64,000 nucleotides of DNA from an uncultured Rhodobacter sp. (lineage in GTDB: Bacteria > Pseudomonadota > Alphaproteobacteria > Rhodobacterales > Rhodobacteraceae). The stretch covers positions 62,001-126,000 of the forward strand of contig CAMFII010000006.1 of NCBI GenBank assembly GCA_945952585.1, written 5' to 3'. The translations under genes were made by a program, and so were the position numbers. How positions within the stretch are numbered: position 1 is the stretch's first letter; each line of letters opens with the position of its first letter. Under the pieces are notes generated by a model. The model searched no databases and was not told the origin of the DNA. It worked only from the letters and a program-made list of their open reading frames with translations. Positions 14,983-25,058 of the stretch are shown one piece after another.

Positions 14983-15780
14983 ATGAATGACATGCGTATC
15001 GCGGAGCGTGACGTGGAAACCAACGAAAGCAAGATCTCGGCCCGGAAGGTTCAGGTCTATTACGGCACGAACCACGCGCTCAAGGACGTCGACGTCGATA
15101 TCCTCGACAAGACCGTGACGGCCTTCATCGGCCCGTCGGGCTGCGGCAAGTCCACCTTCCTGCGCTGCCTGAACCGGATGAATGACACGGTGGCCAGCGC
15201 GCGCGTCGAAGGCACGATCAAGCTCGACGGTGAGAACATTTACGACGCCAAGGTGGACCCGGTGCAGCTGCGCGCCAAGGTCGGCATGGTGTTCCAGAAG
15301 CCGAACCCCTTCCCCAAGTCGATCTACGACAACATCGCCTACGGCCCGAAGATCCACGGCCTGACCCGCTCGAAAAGCGAGCTTGACGGCATCGTCGAGA
15401 CCTCGCTGAAGAAAGCCGCGCTCTGGAACGAGGTGAAGGACCGGCTCGACTCGCCTGGCACTGGCCTGTCGGGCGGCCAGCAGCAGCGCCTCTGCATCGC
15501 GCGGGCCATCGCCACCCAGCCGGAAGTCCTGTTGATGGACGAGCCCTGCTCGGCGCTGGACCCGATCGCGACCGCGCAGGTCGAGGAACTGATCGACGAA
15601 CTCCGCAGCCAATTCTCGGTGGTGATCGTCACCCACTCGATGCAGCAGGCCGCCCGCGTCAGCCAGCGCACGGCCTTCTTCCACCTTGGCAACCTTGTCG
15701 AATACGGCGAGACGGGCCAGATCTTTACCAACCCCAAGGATCCCCGCACGGAGTCCTACATTACCGGCCGGATCGGCTGA
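14983..15780 (+). CDS. pstB: Phosphate ABC transporter ATPase PstB
   Basis: The 265-residue ATPase energises PstCA. Walker [10 protein letters not shown] (residues 50-58), signature LSGGQQQRL, Walker [13 protein letters not shown] and switch histidine [12 protein letters not shown] are all intact. The N-terminal 20 residues precede the domain, and an internal ATG at 14992 is an alternative start; AAGGGGG lies upstream of 14983. The protein should sit at the inner face of the membrane and also take part in repressing the Pho regulon when phosphate is plentiful. Confidence 0.96.
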
Positions 15781-15790
15781 GGGAGCATCC

Positions 15791-16510
15791 ATGAACAGCG
15801 ATCCCCATATCGTCACGTCCTTCGACCGCGATCTCGAGGCCATCCAGGCCATGATCATGAAAATGGGCGGGCTGGTCGAGGCCGCCATCCTCGACGCCGC
15901 CCAGGCGCTCGAGACCCGCGACGACGAACTGGCCGAGCGGGTGCGCCTTGCCGACAGGGCGATTGACGCGCTCGAGGACCAGATCCAATCGGAAGCCGCT
16001 CGGGTCCTGGCGCTGCGTTCGCCCACCGCGACAGACCTGCGGACCGTGCTGTCGGTGATGAAGATCGCAGGCACGCTGGAACGCTGCGGTGACTATGCCA
16101 AGAACCTGGCCAAGCGGTCCTCGGTCCTGAACCAGCTTCCCCCGGTGGGCGACACAGCCGGCACCATCCGCCGCATGGCCAAGGCGGTCGAGCAGCTTCT
16201 GAAGGACGCGCTCGACGCCTATATCCGCCGCGATGCGGAACTGGCCGAGGATGTGCGCCGCCGCGACCGCGATGTCGACCAGATGTACAACTCGCTCTTC
16301 CGCGTTTTCCTCACCCACATGATGGAAGACCCGCGCAACATCACCGCCTGCATGCACCTGCATTTCATCGCCAAGAACCTGGAACGGATGGGCGACCATG
16401 CGACCGGCGTGGCCGAGCAGGTAATCTACCTCGTGCGCGGCGCCCTGCCGGAAGATGCGCGCCCGAAGGAGGACACGACCTCGCTTTCCGGTCTTGACGG
16501 GATGAAGTGA
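15791..16510 (+). CDS. phoU: Phosphate signalling regulator PhoU
   Basis: A 239-residue, almost wholly helical protein with two PhoU repeats. The metal-cluster motifs ERCGDYAKNLAKR and ERMGDHATGVAEQ, one per repeat, are clear. PhoU links the state of the Pst transporter to the PhoR kinase and so dampens PhoB activity when phosphate is sufficient. The start at 15791 follows GGGAG by five bases; an in-frame extension into the end of pstB is rejected. The stop overlaps the phoB ATG by one base. Confidence 0.94.
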   Translation: MNSDPHIVTSFDRDLEAIQAMIMKMGGLVEAAILDAAQALETRDDELAERVRLADRAIDALEDQIQSEAARVLALRSPTATDLRTVLSVMKIAGTLERCGDYAKNLAKRSSVLNQLPPVGDTAGTIRRMAKAVEQLLKDALDAYIRRDAELAEDVRRRDRDVDQMYNSLFRVFLTHMMEDPRNITACMHLHFIAKNLERMGDHATGVAEQVIYLVRGALPEDARPKEDTTSLSGLDGMK

Positions 16511-17202
16511 TGGCAGCCGCCGAACAACCCACAGTGCTGGTCGTCGAGGACGAACCGGCACAGCGTGAAGTCCTGTCCTACAACTTCGAGGCCGAGGGCT
16601 TTCGCGTGTCGCAGGCCGGCAACGGCGAAGAGGCGCTGATCCTGGTCGAAGAGGTCGCGCCCGACGTGATCGTTCTCGACTGGATGCTGCCCAATGTCTC
16701 GGGGATCGAGGTCTGCCGGCGGCTGAAGTCGCGTCCCGAAACCCGCGGCGTGCCGATCATCATGCTCTCGGCCCGGTCCGAGGAAGTGGACCGGGTGCGC
16801 GGGCTTGAAACCGGGGCCGACGACTATGTGACCAAGCCCTATTCGATCGTGGAGCTTCTGGCCCGTGTCCGCGCCCAGCTGCGTCGCTCTCGCCCGTCTT
16901 CGGTCGGACTGACGCTGGCCTATGACGACATCCGGCTCGACCCCGAGACGCACCGCGTCTATCGCGCCGACAAGGTGCTCAAGCTCGGCCCGACCGAGTT
17001 CCGCCTGCTGTCGACCTTCATGGAAAAACCGGGCCGGGTCTGGAGCCGCGAGCAGCTTCTCGACCGCGTCTGGGGCCGCGACATCTATGTCGATACCCGC
17101 ACGGTCGACGTCCATATCGGCCGGCTGCGGAAGGCGCTCTGCGCCTTTGGCGGCGATGATCCGCTGCGCACCGTGCGCGGCGCCGGATACGCGCTCGGCT
17201 GA
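16510..17202 (+). CDS. phoB: Phosphate response regulator PhoB
   Basis: A 230-residue OmpR-type regulator. Its receiver domain has the acidic pocket EDE (14-16), phospho-acceptor Asp57 (VIVLDWMLP) and Lys109, followed by a winged-helix domain with the TVDVHIGRLRKAL recognition helix. The ATG at 16510 overlaps the phoU stop (TGATG); a GTG three bases earlier is also in frame. PhoB should bind the Pho box upstream of pstS, closing an autoregulatory loop. The cognate kinase gene phoR is not next to this operon, unlike many relatives where it precedes pstS. Confidence 0.95.
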   Translation: MAAAEQPTVLVVEDEPAQREVLSYNFEAEGFRVSQAGNGEEALILVEEVAPDVIVLDWMLPNVSGIEVCRRLKSRPETRGVPIIMLSARSEEVDRVRGLETGADDYVTKPYSIVELLARVRAQLRRSRPSSVGLTLAYDDIRLDPETHRVYRADKVLKLGPTEFRLLSTFMEKPGRVWSREQLLDRVWGRDIYVDTRTVDVHIGRLRKALCAFGGDDPLRTVRGAGYALG

Positions 17203-17582: not shown

Positions 17583-18209
17583 TCACCAGCGCAACAGGCG
17601 CCGCCCCAGGACCGCACCGATCCCCGCCACGATCACGATGGCAAGCCCATACCAGGTCACGAAGAACAACGGATTGTCCTCGTTGCAATGGAGGGCATAG
17701 ATCGCGGTCGCAAGCGCGCCACAGGCCAGCCCGGTCAGCGCCCCGCTCCGCCCGGGGTCGGTGCTGGCGCCGGACCGCATCGCCCGCATCGCCGCCGCAA
17801 GCGGCAGAAGCGCGGTCAGCACGATTGCCGGCACGCAGAAGGCCGCCGACTGGCCCATCAGCCCACGCCCCCAGTCTGCCATCGGCATCTGGCTCAGCCC
17901 GTAGACAAAGAGCGCCAGCGCCACCAGCGGAAAGACGATCAACCCCGCGACCGGCGCCGTCGCGTCAGGCCGGGTCAGGCGGACGGCCAGAGCCAGCGCG
18001 GCAAGGCCCAGGGCCAGGGGAAGCAGGTTCTTCAACGCGGTAACCGGTGCCACCAGCGCCGCCGCCAGATCGGGCCGGATCCCGATGATCCCAAGAAGCG
18101 CGCCCCCCGCCAGCAAAAGCGCCAGTGGCAGCCACGCAAGCCGGGCACCGACCGAGGCGGGTTTCACCTCGTCGGCGGCAAGGGCGCGGATCAGATCGTC
18201 GGTCCTCAT
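17583..18209 (-). CDS. nrsF: NrsF-family membrane anti-sigma factor (DUF1109)
   Basis: A 208-residue protein with a short soluble N-terminus (about 1-24) and six predicted membrane helices, the layout of the NrsF/DUF1109 anti-sigma family. Cysteines occur at residues 125, 163 and 175; the 125/175 pair has the same spacing as the two sensing cysteines (131 and 181) known in Caulobacter NrsF. It would hold the adjacent ECF sigma factor at the membrane and release it when the cysteines react with metal or oxidant. It overlaps the sigma gene by four bases (ATGA), so the pair is co-translated. Confidence 0.88.
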   Translation of the reverse strand: MRTDDLIRALAADEVKPASVGARLAWLPLALLLAGGALLGIIGIRPDLAAALVAPVTALKNLLPLALGLAALALAVRLTRPDATAPVAGLIVFPLVALALFVYGLSQMPMADWGRGLMGQSAAFCVPAIVLTALLPLAAAMRAMRSGASTDPGRSGALTGLACGALATAIYALHCNEDNPLFFVTWYGLAIVIVAGIGAVLGRRLLRW

Positions 18210-18751
18210 GGCATCTGCCTTTCGCGCAACTCGGCCAGGCGTTTCAAGGCCCGGTGCAGCGCCACCCGCATCGCGCCTTCCGACATGCCCAGCCGCCGCC
18301 CGGTCTCGGCCGGATCTGCCCCGTCAAGGCTTACGGCCTTCAGCAATTCGGCCGAGCGCGGATCAAGCTGGCCCAGGATCTTGAGCGCGTCGCTGCGTTC
18401 GGTCGGATCGGCCTGCGGCTCGGCAGGAAGGACATCGGCGAAATCCTCGATCGGCACCTGGACATGCTGGCCGCGCGCGCGGAACGCGTCGATCACCTTG
18501 TAGCGCGCGATGGCGTAGAGCCAGGGCTTCACCGGGCTATCCTCGCGCCAGGTGTGGCGCTTGAGATGGATGGCAAGCAGAACGTCCTGCACGATGTCCT
18601 CCTGCGCCTCGGGAGAAAAGGCGCGTCCGCGCGCGCGGACGATCCCGCGCAAGACCGGGGTGACCAGATGCAGCAGACGGCCATAGGCGCGCGTATCGCC
18701 GCCATTGGCCGCACGCATCAGCGCGGACCAGTCTGCATCCGTCTCGGTCAT
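18206..18751 (-). CDS. sigF: ECF sigma factor, SigF type paired with NrsF
   Basis: A 181-residue extracytoplasmic-function sigma factor. Region 2 is seen around [18 protein letters not shown] and [16 protein letters not shown] (about 48-95), and region 4 around [16 protein letters not shown] and [21 protein letters not shown] (about 130-172). The ATG at 18751 gives the normal N-terminus; a longer frame upstream runs across the promoter region and is rejected. It forms a unit with nrsF and is divergent from the bufferin operon. By homology with Caulobacter SigF it should recognise GTAAC-type -35 and CGAA -10 elements; one such site precedes its own gene and one precedes bufA1. Confidence 0.93.
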
Positions 18752-18764
18752 GTCCGTTCGTCCA

Positions 18765-18789
18765 TTCGCGGCCGCGCGGGAATTGTTAC
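18765..18789 (-). promoter_or_regulatory. Candidate ECF promoter of sigF-nrsF
   Basis: Read on the minus strand, GTAACA (18789-18784) is followed after 15 bases by CGAA (18768-18765), 14 bases before the sigF ATG. It resembles the promoter in front of bufA1 and would give autoregulation. The spacing is one base shorter and the leader would be very short, so it is less certain than the bufA1 promoter. Confidence 0.5.
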
Positions 18790-18846
18790 AGGCTTTCCCT
18801 CGATACAGGGAAAAGCGCCGGTTTCGAACACCAAACCGTGAGCGGC

Positions 18847-18872
18847 GTAACAGCGGGCCGGACGCCCTCGAA
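18847..18872 (+). promoter_or_regulatory. Candidate ECF (SigF-type) promoter of the bufferin operon
   Basis: GTAACA (18847-18852), a 16-base spacer, and CGAA (18869-18872). This is the arrangement expected for SigF/NrsF-type ECF promoters. A leader of about 50 bases leads to GGAG (18920-18923) and the bufA1 ATG at 18930. Between this promoter and that of sigF lies a small dyad TTTCCCT/AGGGAAA (18794-18800, 18807-18813). Confidence 0.7.
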
Positions 18873-18929
18873 CGGTCCATGCAGGAACCGGTGGTCGGTT
18901 CCCCTGACACAAAGGATCTGGAGACAGAG

Positions 18930-19208
18930 ATGACCCACATGCCCACCGCCCTTGGCCTGACCGCCTCGCTCGCCGCCGCCCTGACCGCGGCCGCCGGCGC
19001 CGCCCATGCCGACGACATGAAGATGGAGAAATGCTACGGCATCGCGCTGGCCGGCCAGAACGACTGCGCCGCGGGCGCCGGCACCACCTGCGCGGGCACC
19101 TCGAAGGTCGATTATGACGGTGCGCATTGGAAGTATGTCCCCGCCGGTACCTGCGTGACCATGAAGACGCCGACCGGCATGGGGTCGCTCGAGCCGATGA
19201 AGTCCTGA
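18930..19208 (+). CDS. bufA1: Bufferin precursor BufA1 (DUF2282), copper-binding RiPP
   Basis: A 92-residue peptide with a Sec signal (about 1-27, ending AHA) and a core of about 65 residues with four cysteines (35, 46, 54, 75). The [15 protein letters not shown] segment and the PAGTC near the end are hallmarks of BufA1/DUF2282 precursors. In characterised bufferins some of these cysteines are turned into thiooxazole heterocycles by an MNIO enzyme, and the exported product sequesters copper. The start at 18930 is set by GGAG six bases upstream and by the signal peptide. First gene of bufA1-bufB-bufC-doxX and downstream of an ECF promoter. The precise modified residues are inference. Confidence 0.92.
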
Positions 19209-19218
19209 TCCGGACCCC

Positions 19219-19244
19219 CGCGGGCGATCCACCGGTCGCCCGCG
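19219..19244 (+). other. Perfect 9-bp hairpin between bufA1 and bufB
   Basis: CGCGGGCGA (19219-19227) pairs fully with TCGCCCGCG (19236-19244) around an 8-base loop. There is no T tract. It probably stabilises or partly terminates the precursor mRNA so that the peptide is made in excess over its enzymes. Confidence 0.6.
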
Positions 19245-19271
19245 CCCACCCCCTCCAGCGCGAGAGTTCCG

Positions 19272-20120
19272 ATGCCAAGCCCCCTGCCCGCCGCCGCCGG
19301 CCTCGGCTTCAAGCCCGAGCATTTCGCCGCGATCCACCAGACGCGTCCCACCCTCGGCTTCTTCGAGGTCCATGCCGAGAACTACATGGGCGACGGCGGA
19401 CGCCCCCATGCCCAGCTCACCGCGCTCCGCGCCGATTACGCGCTGTCGCTGCACGGCGTGGGCCTCTCGATCGGCGGGTCGGACCCGCTCGACCGCGACC
19501 ACCTCGCCCGCCTGCGCCGCCTGATCGACCGCTACCAGCCCGAGAGCTTTTCCGAACACCTCGCCTGGTCGAGCCATGGCGGCGAGTTCCTGTACGACCT
19601 CCTGCCGCTCCCCTACACCGACGAGACGCTTGGCATCGTCTGTGCCCATATCGACGAGGTGCAGCAGGCGCTCGGCCGCCGGATCCTGCTGGAAAACCCC
19701 TCGACCTACCTCCAATTCGCCCAGTCGACCTGGGCCGAGACCGATTTCCTGCGCGAGATCGCGCGGCGCACCGGCTGCGGCCTGCTTCTCGATGTGAACA
19801 ACGTCTTCGTCGCCTGCACCAACCGCCGCGAGGATCCCCGCGCTTGGCTCGCCGATTTCCCGCTGCATCTGGTGGGCGAGATCCACCTCGGCGGCCACGA
19901 CGCCGAAACCCTGCCGACCGGCCCCCTGCTGATCGACGCCCACGGCTCGCCCGTCGCCGACCCGGTCTGGGCGCTCTTCGCGGAGGTCCTGGACCGCACC
20001 GGCCCGCTGCCGGTCCTCATCGAATGGGACAACGACGTGCCCGAGTTCCCCGTGCTCCTTGCAGAGGCCCGCGCCGCGCAATCCTTCATCAACCGGAGCG
20101 GCCATGCACTCGCATCCTGA
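19272..20120 (+). CDS. bufB: MNIO-family heterocyclase BufB (DUF692)
   Basis: A 282-residue TIM-barrel protein of the multinuclear non-heme iron oxidative (MNIO, DUF692) family. The conserved metal-binding motifs appear in order: EVHAENY (32-38), LHGVG (60-64), SEHLAW (94-99), ENPSTY (141-146), DVNN (174-177), GEIHLGGH (202-209), DAHG (222-225) and EWDND (251-255). The enzyme is expected to oxidise cysteines of BufA1 in the cytoplasm before export. It follows the precursor gene by 63 bp and overlaps bufC by 17 bp, so the enzymes are translated together. Confidence 0.95.
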
Positions 20121-20868
20121 CCTGATCGGCGCCTTCCGCGACGGACTCGTGACCAGCACTCTCCCGCCCGGTTCCGCCGCCGACCCGGCCGAGATCGACC
20201 GCCGCTTCGGCGTCTACCGCAACAACGTCGCCCACAGCCTCACCGAGGCGCTGGCCGCACGCTTTCCGGTGGTCAAGGCGCTGGTCGGCGACGACTTCTT
20301 CCGCGCCACGGCCCGCCTCTTCATCGCCCAGCACGGGCCGAAAACCCCGATCCTGATGCTCTGGGGGGACGAGTTCCCCGGCTTCCTGCGCAGCTTTCCC
20401 CCGGCCGCCGGCCTTCCCTACCTCGCCGATGTCGCGCGCCTCGAATATGCGCGCGGCCTGGCTTACCACGCCGCCGACACGCCACCCCTGACGGCCGAGG
20501 CGCTGGCCCTCGCCGCCGCCGGGGCTGACACCGCCCGCCTCGCCCTCCACCCTTCGGTGCAGCTCCTGCGCGCCCGCCATGCCTTCGTGACGATCTGGGC
20601 CGCGCATCAGCCGGGCGCCGCCACGAGCGAGATCGACCCGTCGCAAGAAGAGATCGCGCTCGTCCTGCGCAACCGCCACCTCGATGTCGAGGTCTGGCGG
20701 ATGACCCGGGCCGAGTCGCTCTTCATCGCCAGCCTCGTCAAGACAGGACACCTCCTCGGCGCCGCCGGGGCCGCCCGCGTCGTCGATCCCCGCTTCGACC
20801 CGACCCACCTCATCCTGCGCCTCTCCGCAGCGGGCGCCCTTATCTCCCGGGAGACGACCGATGTCTGA
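20104..20868 (+). CDS. bufC: BufC, DUF2063-domain partner of the MNIO enzyme
   Basis: A 254-residue protein whose N-terminal half is a DUF2063 domain (about 5-95; [17 protein letters not shown] and [13 protein letters not shown] are typical). The C-terminal part (about 95-250) is the variable region of BufC/HvfC-type proteins. Such partners bind the precursor and present it to the MNIO enzyme. The start at 20104 lies inside the last codons of bufB and matches the domain start. It overlaps the DoxX gene by eight bases. Confidence 0.92.
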
Positions 20869-21328
20869 CTTGACCATGACCGCCGCACCGGCCCCGATCC
20901 TGCGCCGGATCAACACGCTTCTCGGCCGCCTGCCCTGGGAGGTTCCGGCGCTTTTCGCCCGCCTGATCCCCGCCTCGATCTTCTGGGCCTCGGGCCGGAC
21001 CAAGGTCGACGGCTGGTGGATCGCCGACAGCACCTGGTATCTCTTCGAGAACGACTACGCCCTGCCGCTGGTCCCGCCGCCGGTCGCCGCCGTAATGGCG
21101 ACTTTCGCCGAGCATTTCTTCCCGATCCTTCTGGCCCTCGGCCTCTGCACCCGCCTCTCGGCGCTGGCGCTTCTCGGCATGACCACGGTGATCGAGGTCT
21201 TCGTCTATCCCGACGCCTGGCCCACCCACGGCCTCTGGGCCGCCTGCTTCCTCGCCCTCATCGCCAAAGGTCCGGGCCGGCTGTCACTGGACTGGTGGTT
21301 CGGATGGGACGGCAAACACGATATGTGA
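20861..21328 (+). CDS. DoxX-family membrane protein of the bufferin operon
   Basis: A 155-residue protein with four hydrophobic segments (about 28-45, 68-88, 92-112, 120-140) that matches the DoxX family. A DoxX gene closes many bufferin operons; its exact role is unknown, though a redox link to the respiratory chain has been proposed for the family. It overlaps bufC by eight bases and is followed by a terminator. This is the second DoxX gene in the window and is not closely similar to the one at 4013. Confidence 0.88.
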
Positions 21329-21341
21329 ACCGAAAAAAGGA

Positions 21342-21374
21342 AAAGGCCCCCGCCGAACCTTGGCGGGAGCCTTT
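21342..21374. terminator. Bidirectional terminator between the bufferin operon and nrdJ
   Basis: AAAGGC-CCCGCC (21342-21354) pairs with GGCGGG-GCCTTT (21362-21374) with one internal mismatch; the T-rich end serves the plus strand and the A-rich start serves nrdJ on the minus strand. Confidence 0.8.
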
Positions 21375-21401
21375 CGCTCGGGTTAACCCCATCGGTTCCG
21401 A

Positions 21402-24400
21402 TCAGCTGCAGCCGCTCGTGCCGCCGCAGGTGTTGCACTTCATGCAGGTGCCGTTGCGGACCAGCGTGTAGTTGCCGCATTCGCCGCAAGGATCGCCTTC
21501 GTAGCCCTGCATCTTGGCCTTGGTCCGGGCGTCCATCGACACCGTACCCGTCGCCAGCGCCGTCGCGCCGATCGTCGTCTCGGTGAAGCTCAGCGATCCA
21601 TCCGAACCGAAAGCCGTCGCGGCGATCCCGCCCTGCAGCACCACCAGTTCCTGCGGCAGGCGCTTGCGGAGGTAGCCGGTCGAACTGATCGATTTCAGCA
21701 GTTCCACCGACTTCGACGCCTGCGACTCGCTCACCTCACCGATGTTGCGCTTGCCTTCCTCGTCGCCCCGGCCGAGGTCGTCGAAAGCCGCACCCTGAGG
21801 TTTCACATGCGCCAGGTCCGTGCGGTCGAGGTAGGAGACCGCCAGTTCCCGGAAGATGTAGTCGAGGATCGAGGTCGCGTTCTTGATGGAGTCGTTGCCC
21901 TGCACCATGCCCGCCGGCTCGAACCGGGTGAAGGTGAAGGCTTCGACGAATTCCTCCAGCGGAACACCGTATTGCAGGCCGACGCTCACGGCGATTGCGA
22001 AGTTGTTCATCATCGCCCGGAAGCCCGCGCCTTCCTTGTGCATGTCGATGAAAATCTCGCCGAGCGAGCCATCACCGTATTCGCCGGTGCGCAGGTAGAC
22101 CTTGTGCCCGCCGACGATCGCCTTCTGGGTATAGCCCTTGCGGCGTTCCGGAAGCTTCTCGCGGTGGCTGCGGACGATCTCCTTGACGATCACCTTCTCG
22201 ATGATCTTCTCGGCCACGACCTGGGCCTTCTCCGCCGGGGTGCCGGTGGCGAGGATTTCCTCGGCTTCCTCGTCATCCTCGACCAGGGCCGAGGCGAGAG
22301 GCTGGCTGAGTTTCGAGCCGTCGCGATAGAGCGCGTTGGCCTTCACACCCAACTTCCACGACAGTTCGTAAGCCGCGAGAGTATCGGCGATAGTCGCCGA
22401 GTTCGGCATGTTGATCGTCTTCGAGATCGCGCCCGAGATGAAGCTCTGCGCCGCCGCCATCATGTGGATGTGGCTCTCGACCGAGAGATAGCGCGTGCCC
22501 TTCTTGCCGCAGATATTGGCGCAGTCGAAGACCGGGTAATGCGCGACCTTCAGGTGCGGCGCACCTTCCAGAGTCATCGTCCCGCAGACATGGTCGTTGG
22601 CGGCCGCGACCTGCGCCTTGGAGAAGCCCAGATGCGCAAGCAGGTCGAAGGTCGGATCTGCCAGCTTTTCCGCGGGGATACCGAGCGTTCCTGCACAGAA
22701 CTCTTCACCGAGCGTCCACTGGTTGAAGACAAAGCGGATGTCGAAGGCCGTCGGCAGCGCCGCCTCGATCTTGGCGATCTCCGCCGCGCCGAAGCCGTGC
22801 CCGATCAGCGCGGTATGGTTGATCCCGGGCGCCTGGCCAAGGCTGCCGTGACCCACGGCATAGGCCACGATCTCGGCAATCTGGGCCGGGGTGTAACCCA
22901 GGGTTTCCAGAGCCGCCGGAACACTTTGGTTGATGATCTTGAAGTAACCGCCCCCGGCCAGCTTCTTGAACTTCACCAACGCGAAGTCCGGCTCGATCCC
23001 GGTCGTGTCGCAGTCCATCACAAGGCCGATCGTGCCGGTCGGCGCGATCACCGTGGTCTGGGCGTTGCGGTAGCCGTGGATTTCGCCCAGGCGCAGCGCC
23101 TCGTTCCAGGACTGCCGGGCCAGCGTGACCAGCGTCACGTCCGGGCAACCTTCAGCGTCGAGGGCAACCGGGGCGACGTTGACCGATTCATAACCGGTCG
23201 TTTCGGAAAACGCCGCGCGGCGATGGTTGCGGATGACGCGCAGCATGTGCTGGGCGTTGCGGGCATAGCCGGGGAACGGACCCAGCTCGCCCGCCATCTC
23301 GGCCGAGGTCGCATAGGTCACGCCGGTCATGATCGCGGTCAGCGCACCGCAAAGCGCACGGCCCTCACGCGAGTCGTAGCCGAGCCCCATGTTCATCAAG
23401 AGGCCGCCGATATTGGCGTAACCGAGACCCAGGGTGCGGAAATCATAGGACAATTGCGCGATTTCCTTCGACGGGAACTGCGCCATCATCACCGAGATTT
23501 CCAGCGTCACCGTCCAGAGCCGGGTCGCGTGGACATAGCCTTCGGCGTCAAACTTGCCGTCCTTGTAGAAGGTCAGCAGGTTCATCGAGGCCAGGTTGCA
23601 GGCCGTGTCATCGAGGAACATGTATTCCGAGCAAGGGTTGGACCCCCGGATCGGCCCGTCTTCCGGGCAGGTGTGCCAGGCGTTGACGGTGTCATGGAAC
23701 TGGATGCCGGGGTCGGCGCAGGCCCAGGCGGCGTGGCCGATCTGGTCCCACAGCTCGCGCGCCTTGATGGTCTTCGCGACCTTGCCATCGGTGCGGCGGA
23801 TCAGCTCCCAGTCGGCATCCTCGCGGACGGCCTTCAGGAAGGCGTCGGTGACGCGGACCGAGTTGTTGGAGTTCTGGCCGGACACCGTGATGTAGGCTTC
23901 CGAATCCCAGTCGGTGTCATAGGTCGGAAACTCAATGCTGCCAAAGCCTTGCGCGGCGTATTGAAGAACTCGGTTGATGTAGGTTTCCGGGATCATCGCC
24001 TTCTTGGCCGAACGGATCGCCGACTTCAGCGCCCCGTTCACCGCCGGATCGGTCGCCCCGGCTTCGCTGCCGTCGAAACCACGGATCGCCGCGAAGATCT
24101 CGTTCAGCTTCTGCTCGTGCATCTTGGAGCCGGCCACAAGCGAGGCGACCTTCTGTTCCTCGATGACCTTCCAGTTGATGAACTGCTCGATATCGGGGTG
24201 ATCCATGTCGCAGATCACCATCTTGGCCGCCCGGCGGGTGGTGCCGCCCGACTTGATCGCGCCCGCCGCCCGGTCGCCGATCTTCAGGAAGCCCATCAGG
24301 CCCGAGGATTTGCCGCCGCCGGACAATTTCTCGCCCTCGCCGCGCAGCGACGAGAAGTTGGTGCCGGTGCCCGAGCCGTACTTGAACAGCCGCGCCTCGC

Positions 24401-25058
24401 GGACCCAGAGGTCCATGATCCCGCCCTCGTTCACGAGGTCGTCCGAGACCGACTGGATGAAGCAGGCATGGGGCTGCGGATGCTCGTAGGCGCTGTCCGA
24501 TTTGGTCAGTTTGCCGGTCTTGTAGTCGACGTAGAAGTGCCCCTGCGACGGGCCGTCGATGCCGTAAGCCCAGTGCAGACCGGTGTTAAACCATTGAGGA
24601 GAATTGGGTGCCGCCATCTGGCATGCTAGCATGTAACGCATTTCGTCGTGGTAGGCGCGGGCATCCGCCTCGGTCGAGAAGTAGCCGCCCTTCCAGCCCC
24701 AATAGGCCCAGGCGCCGGCCAGACGGTCGAAGACCTGGCGGGCCGAGGTCTCGCCCACGAAGCGCTCATTCGCGGGCAGCGCGGCCAGCGCCTCCTCGTC
24801 GGGGACCGAGCGCCACAGGAATTCGGGCACGCCCTTTTCCTTCACGCGCTTCCTGCGGGCGGGCACACCGGCCTTGCGGAAATACTTCTGGGCAAGCACG
24901 TCGGACGCGACCTGGCTCCAGCCCTCGGGCACCTCGACCGCCTCGTTGCGGAAGACGATCTTGCCGTCCGGATTGCGGATCTCGGAGGTGGTGGTGGTGA
25001 AGGCCAGCGCGCCATAGGCGCCGGTCTCGGAGTTGGTGAATCTGCGCTCGATCTTCAT
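21402..25058 (-). CDS. nrdJ: Adenosylcobalamin-dependent (class II) ribonucleotide reductase NrdJ
   Basis: The 1218-residue enzyme makes deoxynucleotides with a coenzyme B12 radical and so works with or without oxygen. Class II features include GSNPCSEY with the active-site cysteine, [11 protein letters not shown] in the N-terminal catalytic half, and a C-terminal zinc-ribbon-like tail rich in cysteine (CGECG...CMKCNTCGG) that probably re-reduces the active site. The start at 25058 gives [13 protein letters not shown], usual for the family; the open frame continues 468 bases upstream through the promoter region and is rejected. An NrdR box lies over the promoter. Confidence 0.95.

Follow-up and report, generated by a model that had tools for sequence, protein, structure and literature searches.

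What system does the divergent gene block at positions 17583-21328 of the window (the whole stretch of 64,000 nucleotides from an uncultured Rhodobacter sp. analysed here) encode, and what controls it? The block consists of six genes with open frames. On the minus strand lie nrsF (17583..18209), encoding a 208-aa anti-sigma factor with conserved Cys125 and Cys175, and sigF (18206..18751), encoding a 181-aa ECF sigma factor; the two frames overlap by 4 bp. Divergent from them, across a 178-bp intergenic region, the plus strand carries bufA (18930..19208), for a 92-aa bufferin-1 precursor, bufB (19272..20120), for a 282-aa MNIO bufferin maturase, bufC (20104..20868), for a 254-aa DUF2063 partner protein (PME type 1), and doxX (20861..21328), for a 155-aa DoxX-family membrane protein. 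The bufB and bufC frames overlap by 17 bp and those of bufC and doxX by 8 bp. Downstream, a 14-bp hairpin (21341..21375) stands between doxX and a convergent class II ribonucleotide reductase gene; the terminator scan returned it as a minus-strand entry only.

In a profile search, all six proteins scored above the Pfam family cut-offs: NrsF (PF06532, 158.6 bits, cut-off 26.8), SigF (Sigma70_r2 and Sigma70_r4_2, together with NF009165 at 221.3 bits, cut-off 198), BufA (DUF2282, PF10048, 90.6 bits, cut-off 22.4), BufB (PF05114, 355.9 bits, cut-off 25; NF050167 MNIO_BufB, 386.1 bits, cut-off 310), BufC (PF09836, 82.7 bits, cut-off 27.2) and DoxX (PF07681, 67.3 bits, cut-off 23.6). A preliminary description of this DNA had called the block a complete six-gene bufferin system with a four-cysteine precursor, and both statements hold. 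The BufA cysteines (residues 35, 46, 54 and 75) were kept in all 81 sequences compared. Its single N-terminal hydrophobic stretch (residues 7-25, by hydrophobicity only) is compatible with a Sec signal peptide. BufB aligned with the 3bww and MbnB chains, and the invariant histidine, acidic and cysteine columns were retained in the alignments. The locus thus contains these features of bufferin 1 (Buf1): a DUF2282 precursor with four cysteines, a BufB-type MNIO, a DUF2063 partner and a DoxX gene. Counting against this assignment, three proteins fell below NCBIfam equivalog cut-offs although they exceeded those of Pfam: BufC against HvfC (55 bits, cut-off 142), DoxX against HvfX (51 bits, cut-off 80) and NrsF against AntiSigF_NrsF (NF042994; 88.9 bits, cut-off 300). 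NrsF is therefore assigned here to its Pfam family only, and we do not class it with that equivalog.

A search of the whole genome at an E-value of 0.001 found a single gene each for DUF2282, NrsF and MNIO, and all three lie at the bufferin locus. Among the loci of the 80 nearest BufB relatives (the best 80 of at least 583 confirmed candidates), a BufA frame was found in 80, BufC in 79, DoxX in 77, SigF in 74 and NrsF in 74, and the SigF frame lay on the strand opposite bufA in 65; the models behind these gene counts were made from those very loci. The gene set shared with the relatives is more than chance. It is highly improbable that the operon has decayed or fallen silent, a reading for which we found no supporting point and against which stand the open frames, the tight overlaps, the retained histidine, acidic and cysteine columns, and the conserved promoter elements.

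These promoter elements were located by a genome-wide pattern search. A SigF-type promoter, GTAACA-N15-CGAA, precedes sigF-nrsF (18765..18789, minus strand), and another, GTAACA-N16-CGAA, precedes bufA-bufB-bufC-doxX (18847..18872, plus strand). Both were among five strict matches in the 3.9-Mb genome, where the reversed pattern gave 16; the two sites of the window were already known when the strict pattern was chosen. In the 80 relatives, it occurred upstream of bufA in 35 (reversed, 1) and on the other strand in 30 (reversed, 3). As the upstream DNA of the relatives also showed rhizobial -10 variants (CGTA) plus CGAC and CGTC forms, the pattern was widened after inspection of the data to GTAA[CT]-N16/17-CG[AT][ACG], which matched upstream of bufA in 74 of 81 cases, against 1 of 81 for the reversed control; the count of 74 is therefore partly fitted. 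On the sigF side, a widened site was found in 65 of 66 cases (the window plus 65 relatives), counted without a reversed control. The NrsF cysteine pair was likewise conserved (C125 in 74 and C175 in 73 of 75 sequences), with a spacing of 50 that equals that of C131/C181 in Caulobacter (PMC3511200). The locus thus has an NrsF-family protein with two conserved cysteines. It also has GTAAC-N-CGAA promoters at the two divergent operons, and such elements, present in relatives as well, support the predicted SigF control.

The looser pattern GTAACN-N15/16-CGAA had 14 sites in the genome (reversed, 43). None of the 12 outside the locus stood out in an ORF listing, used without a family search, as an intergenic stress-gene promoter. 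An inverted repeat upstream of the sigF -35, TTTCCCT-cgatac-AGGGAAA (18794-18813), was dropped, as it was absent by eye from the sigF promoters of relatives.

The Pfam matches, the SigF sites at both starts and the relatives' loci agree with the earlier identification of a SigF/NrsF-controlled bufferin-1 system. We consider it highly probable (about 0.87) that the block is an ordinary operon of this kind, including the proposed release of SigF by metal, modification and copper chelation. Its gene content, gene order, conserved cysteines and promoter elements are plain; the functional steps are predicted by homology. Without stress, membrane NrsF would keep SigF bound. Excess metal would act, directly or indirectly, via the conserved cysteine pair of NrsF and free SigF, which with RNA polymerase would transcribe both divergent units from the GTAAC-N-CGAA promoters. 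BufB and its partner BufC would then oxidise the two central BufA cysteines in the cytoplasm, and the Sec system would export the modified BufA, which would chelate copper in the periplasm. DoxX may have an accessory membrane role. Homology thus suggests metal sensing by the window system and release of SigF upon metal stress, as it does cysteine modification, export and copper binding of the window BufA.

Such a system is of a known type: Caulobacter crescentus CC3252-CC3257, where SigF/NrsF was characterised in 2012 (PMC3511200), comprises the same genes, and a 2025 MNIO survey lists sigma-factor and NrsF genes in Buf1 clusters (PMC12452194). The linked sensor-response block, to which the preliminary description had drawn attention, was therefore not newly visible here. 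In the Caulobacter reports, induction of CC3254-CC3257 depends on SigF (PMC3511200), copper induction is listed under each of the four Table 2 conditions, and a sigF::Tn5 mutant is copper-sensitive (PMC8224329). Cu, Cd and Cr elicit a response of the regulon (PMC8224329; PMC3511200), and H2O2, t-BOOH, paraquat and diamide changed it no more than twofold (PMC3511200), which contradicts, for Caulobacter, the oxidant induction that the preliminary description had expected. There, sigF is described as weakly autoregulated at most under Cr or Cd, with a second, unnamed regulator (PMC3511200). Also counted against the bufferin-1 reading were the 15-nt spacer of the window's sigF promoter, instead of 16 nt, and reported resistance results: a section heading describes sigF, and likewise CC2906/CC3255, as dispensable for metal-stress resistance in Caulobacter (PMC3511200), and the gig cluster of C. 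metallidurans, as recounted in PMC8224329, had no effect on copper resistance, which other determinants could mask.

The main signal sensed by SigF/NrsF might instead be related to sulfur or redox state, sulfite for example, with metal induction of bufferin secondary. DoxX and the SigF target YedY/MsrP carry sulfur-linked annotations (PMC3511200; PMC8224329), and sulfite elicits a response from RpoE4 of S. meliloti, an ECF factor that has a putative anti-sigma partner (PMC3511301). We regard this as unlikely: the published list of the RpoE4 regulon includes sorT but names none of its members as a bufferin gene (PMC3511301), the Caulobacter regulon answers metals and not diamide or peroxides, and none of the 14 SigF-pattern sites in the window's genome coincided, by contig position, with its three Oxidored_molyb matches.

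Control by SigF/NrsF alone is another matter. An offset scan with controls placed a palindromic element, ACACCAAACCGTGA (18828..18841, plus strand), 5 nt upstream of the bufA SigF -35; it is a degenerate TCACG-N4-CGTGA that agrees at 8 of 9 scored positions. A palindrome (at least 7 of 9) stood at offset 5 in 35 of 74 bufA-side promoters, compared with counts of 0-2 for the remaining offsets between 0 and 15, 0 of 65 at offset 5 on the sigF side and a shuffle mean of 0.10. In 37 Rhodobacterales bufA promoters, the arms averaged 1.04 bits, the 4-nt centre 0.12 and DNA further upstream 0.13. The palindrome was first spotted by eye and then scored on those same loci, which are related by descent, so the counts are not independent. 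A looser search allowing two mismatches gave about as many matches as its reversed control and was not used. As a footprint of sequence conservation, the palindrome is a new element in the putative control region of Rhodobacterales bufA. The earlier claim of a complete system under SigF/NrsF thus stands as to the SigF promoters at both starts, and as to SigF/NrsF acting alone it may be wrong in Rhodobacterales, because a second conserved operator-like element abuts the promoter.

NrsF is a minority arrangement in the family, with a match in 34 of 211 sampled genomes that have a DUF2282 gene. We examined 20 bufA loci (L109-L128) from genomes in which scoring of all candidates gave no NrsF match (0 of 20). 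All 20 had the same bufA-bufB-bufC-doxX genes, and none had a SigF or NrsF frame or a strict SigF site. In 12 of these loci, CACGN3-6CGTG lay upstream of bufA; shuffling gave a mean of 0.5, and the pattern in reverse matched 1 of 20. A triple half-site, CGTGN3CACGN4CGTGA, was matched in 96 of 295 genomes and, in at least 32 of those 96 (two listings, by eye), stood approximately 150-210 nt upstream of the listed DUF2282 gene; 31 of these lacked an over-cut-off NrsF. In one further genome (G063, locus L129), it stands before the MNIO gene. Identical copies of CGTGAACCACGGCCACGTGA were found inside a gene that we take to be that of ribosomal protein S4. Upstream of bufA, four of the five loci in an ORF listing had a 588-659-aa ORF, presumably threonyl-tRNA synthetase.

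The related half-sites before bufA in NrsF-less genomes suggest a second, candidate regulator. We lean slightly towards two inputs, SigF plus a candidate dimeric regulator that would bind TCACG-N4-CGTGA a few nucleotides before the SigF -35 and act alone where SigF/NrsF is missing. The fixed offset, the conserved arms and the half-sites of NrsF-less loci favour this. Against it, no protein was identified: for ten ORFs representing clusters common to the 20 NrsF-less loci, the sole Pfam matches were to a cold-shock domain and an ArsC-family protein, and 15 of 30 palindromes in the window's own genome, when inspected, indicated none. The strict palindrome was missing from 8 of the 20 loci, the window copy is degenerate, the related loci yield non-independent counts, and Caulobacter CC3254 is reported to be under sole SigF control (PMC3511200). 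Chances are about even that Rhodobacterales bufferin operons are under this second candidate factor and that, in NrsF-less members, half-site arrays replaced SigF control while the biosynthetic operon stayed unchanged.

The new lead is regulatory, resting on the minority status of NrsF and the conserved palindrome beside the bufA promoter. If a second factor does replace SigF, this would amount to a handover of control, with the biosynthetic genes kept as they were. Most sampled family genomes with a DUF2282 gene have no NrsF match, and the palindrome could serve as a defined DNA bait to find their candidate controller. The window genome, with one precursor, one maturase and one NrsF, is a clean single-copy case, so that paralogues would not complicate a test of the SigF circuit.

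Among known systems, the SigF/NrsF-controlled bufferin-1 operon of the window is most like Caulobacter sigF-nrsF/CC3254-CC3257 (CCNA_03362-03366; the bufferin 1 locus), with the same six gene families; NrsF is given as CCNA_03273 in PMC8224329. The Caulobacter SigF consensus, GTAACC-N16-CGAA, resembles the window promoters, and both systems have a DUF2282 precursor and an NrsF whose two conserved cysteines are spaced by 50 residues. The divergent orientation in Caulobacter is deduced from gene numbers and operon order. Unlike Caulobacter, which has CC2907-CC2905, the window genome has no second bufferin operon, and none of its SigF-pattern sites lies at a gene of the YedY/MsrP type. In the window, the bufA promoter has a palindrome ahead of it; Caulobacter upstream DNA lay outside this comparison. 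The NrsF-less operons differ from the window in having CACG/CGTG half-sites upstream and neither a SigF/NrsF frame nor a strict SigF promoter. The gig operons of Cupriavidus metallidurans and Legionella pneumophila are, by their descriptions, similar gold/copper-responsive bufferin clusters or homologues. Finally, fontiphorin/oxazolin captophorins (EGKCG, Lys-Cys) share the MNIO, the DUF2063 partner and the 5-thiooxazole class (PMC13097082), the modification also assigned to Caulobacter bufferin 1, whereas their precursor family differs from that of the window.

The region 17583-21328 comprises six genes, all with open frames. The minus-strand genes nrsF and sigF share 4 bp, and the plus strand carries bufA, a 63-bp gap, and then bufB, bufC and doxX, each overlapping the next. 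Scores exceeded the curated Pfam cut-offs for NrsF, sigma-70 regions 2 and 4, DUF2282, MbnB_TglH_ChrH, DUF2063 and DoxX. In NCBIfam, BufB scored over the cut-off as 'MNIO family bufferin maturase', the equivalogs for NrsF, HvfC and HvfX were matched below their cut-offs, and no model matched BufA. Profile searches of the source genome (3.9 Mb, 21 contigs, 99.96% complete) found one gene each for DUF2282, NrsF and MNIO. Beyond nrsF (14983-17202) lie a PhoB-like response-regulator gene, found by family search, and genes that we take from their sequence to encode a PstB-like ATPase and a PhoU-like protein. A class II (vitamin B12-dependent) ribonucleotide reductase gene (21402-25058) is convergent with doxX, a 14-bp hairpin separating the two.

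The locus was compared with those of the best 80 of at least 583 confirmed BufB candidates from named genomes, which are thus nearest relatives with common ancestry and not a random sample. Among these 80, frames were found for BufA in 80, BufC in 79, DoxX in 77, and SigF and NrsF in 74 each, with SigF on the strand opposite to bufA in 65; in 23, a tandem pair of BufA frames precedes bufB. All four BufA cysteines were retained in 81/81 sequences, window included, as were BufB H61, H96, E141, D174, H205, D222, H224, E251 and D253, presumably the iron-site positions. BufB could also be aligned to 3bww and MbnB chains. In NrsF, Cys125 (74/75) and Cys175 (73/75) were kept, and Cys163 was not conserved (3/75).

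The SigF site described in Caulobacter crescentus is GTAACC-N16-CGAA (PMC3511200). The window carries GTAACA-N16-CGAA on the bufA side and GTAACA-N15-CGAA on the sigF side. The pattern GTAACM-N15/16-CGAA, defined with these two sites in view, occurred five times genome-wide versus 16 for its reverse, and two of the five lay within the 178-bp sigF/bufA intergenic region; with any base permitted after GTAAC, there were 14 sites versus 43 reversed. Across the window and its relatives, a widened pattern, adjusted on the same loci that it scored, was present upstream of bufA in 74/81 (as GTAA[CT]-N16/17-CG[AT][ACG]; reversed control, 1), and a widened SigF-type site upstream of sigF in 65/66, a figure without reversed control. 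These sites, shared by the window and its relatives, support SigF control of both divergent operons. In many rhizobial loci, the promoter on both sides reads GTAAC-N-CGTAG, CGTA replacing CGAA at the -10. The bufA promoter region of one contig titled Novosphingobium sp. MW5 closely matches the Pararhodobacter zhoushanensis one, differing very little, and the contig's assembly is possibly mislabelled or contaminated.

A second element, the palindrome TCACG-N4-CGTGA, was observed upstream of bufA, with 5 nt between it and the SigF -35 that follows; the window's copy (18828-18841) matches at 8/9 positions. Scored on the loci in which it was discovered, the palindrome reached at least 7/9 at this offset in 35/74 promoters (shuffle mean, 0.10), compared with 0 to 2 of 74 at each of 15 other offsets and 0/65 at offset 5 on the sigF side. 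Besides the window, this group included 29/39 Rhodobacterales loci and 5/41 others, with orders read from record titles; rhizobial loci had, by eye, an A/T-rich tract at this position. Of 40 Rhodobacterales sequences, among them the window, three lacked a SigF site and were dropped; in the remaining 37, information content per column was 1.04 bits in the arms, 0.12 in the 4-nt centre, 0.44 in the 5-nt gap, 0.27 in the -35/-10 spacer and 0.13 further upstream. Conserved arms, a free centre and fixed spacing are the pattern left by a dimeric DNA-binding protein, making the palindrome a candidate binding site.

The same kind of palindrome occurred at loci without NrsF. In 295 genomes of the window's family, NrsF exceeded its cut-off in 41, a survey that scored at most ten first-look candidates per genome and may have missed some genes, and DUF2282 was found in 211; comparing the two listings by eye, DUF2282 was present in 34/41 NrsF genomes and 177/254 others. 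Twenty loci from genomes listed towards the top of those 177 all had bufA, bufB, bufC and doxX frames; a SigF frame, an NrsF frame and a strict SigF site were each found in 0/20, and rescoring every candidate in these genomes gave NrsF in 0/20. Upstream of bufA, CACGN3-6CGTG was present in 12/20 (mononucleotide-shuffle mean, 0.5; reversed, 1/20). For ten ORFs representing clusters common to these 20 loci, family matches were limited to a cold-shock domain and an ArsC-family protein. The source genome contained 30 palindromes (control, 16), and the 15 that were readable indicated no regulator. None of the titles among the literature matches listed reported a palindrome at the bufA promoter.

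The preliminary description had anticipated induction by oxidants. This expectation was not borne out in Caulobacter, where peroxides, paraquat and diamide gave no more than twofold induction (PMC3511200). The same study describes sigF as lacking strong autoregulation under Cr or Cd and, in a section heading, as dispensable for resistance to these metals, both of which count against a simple SigF model. It also reports that dichromate causes a fraction of SigF to leave the membrane and that both NrsF cysteines were substituted experimentally. In the tabulated data of another study, the CC3252-CC3257 genes rose with copper in all four conditions, two single values passing by a laxer test only, and a sigF::Tn5 mutant was copper-sensitive (PMC8224329). 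By homology to Caulobacter, the window locus would be expected to sense metal, to modify and export BufA, and to bind copper. A 2025 MNIO survey identifies the central cysteines of Buf1 as the modified ones (PMC12452194), and a further source assigns 5-thiooxazoles to bufferin 1 (PMC13097082). The survey places sigma-factor and anti-sigma genes in Buf1 clusters and not in Buf2 (PMC12452194), and C. crescentus CC3252-CC3257 comprises matching gene families under SigF control (PMC3511200); the window locus therefore belongs to a known kind.
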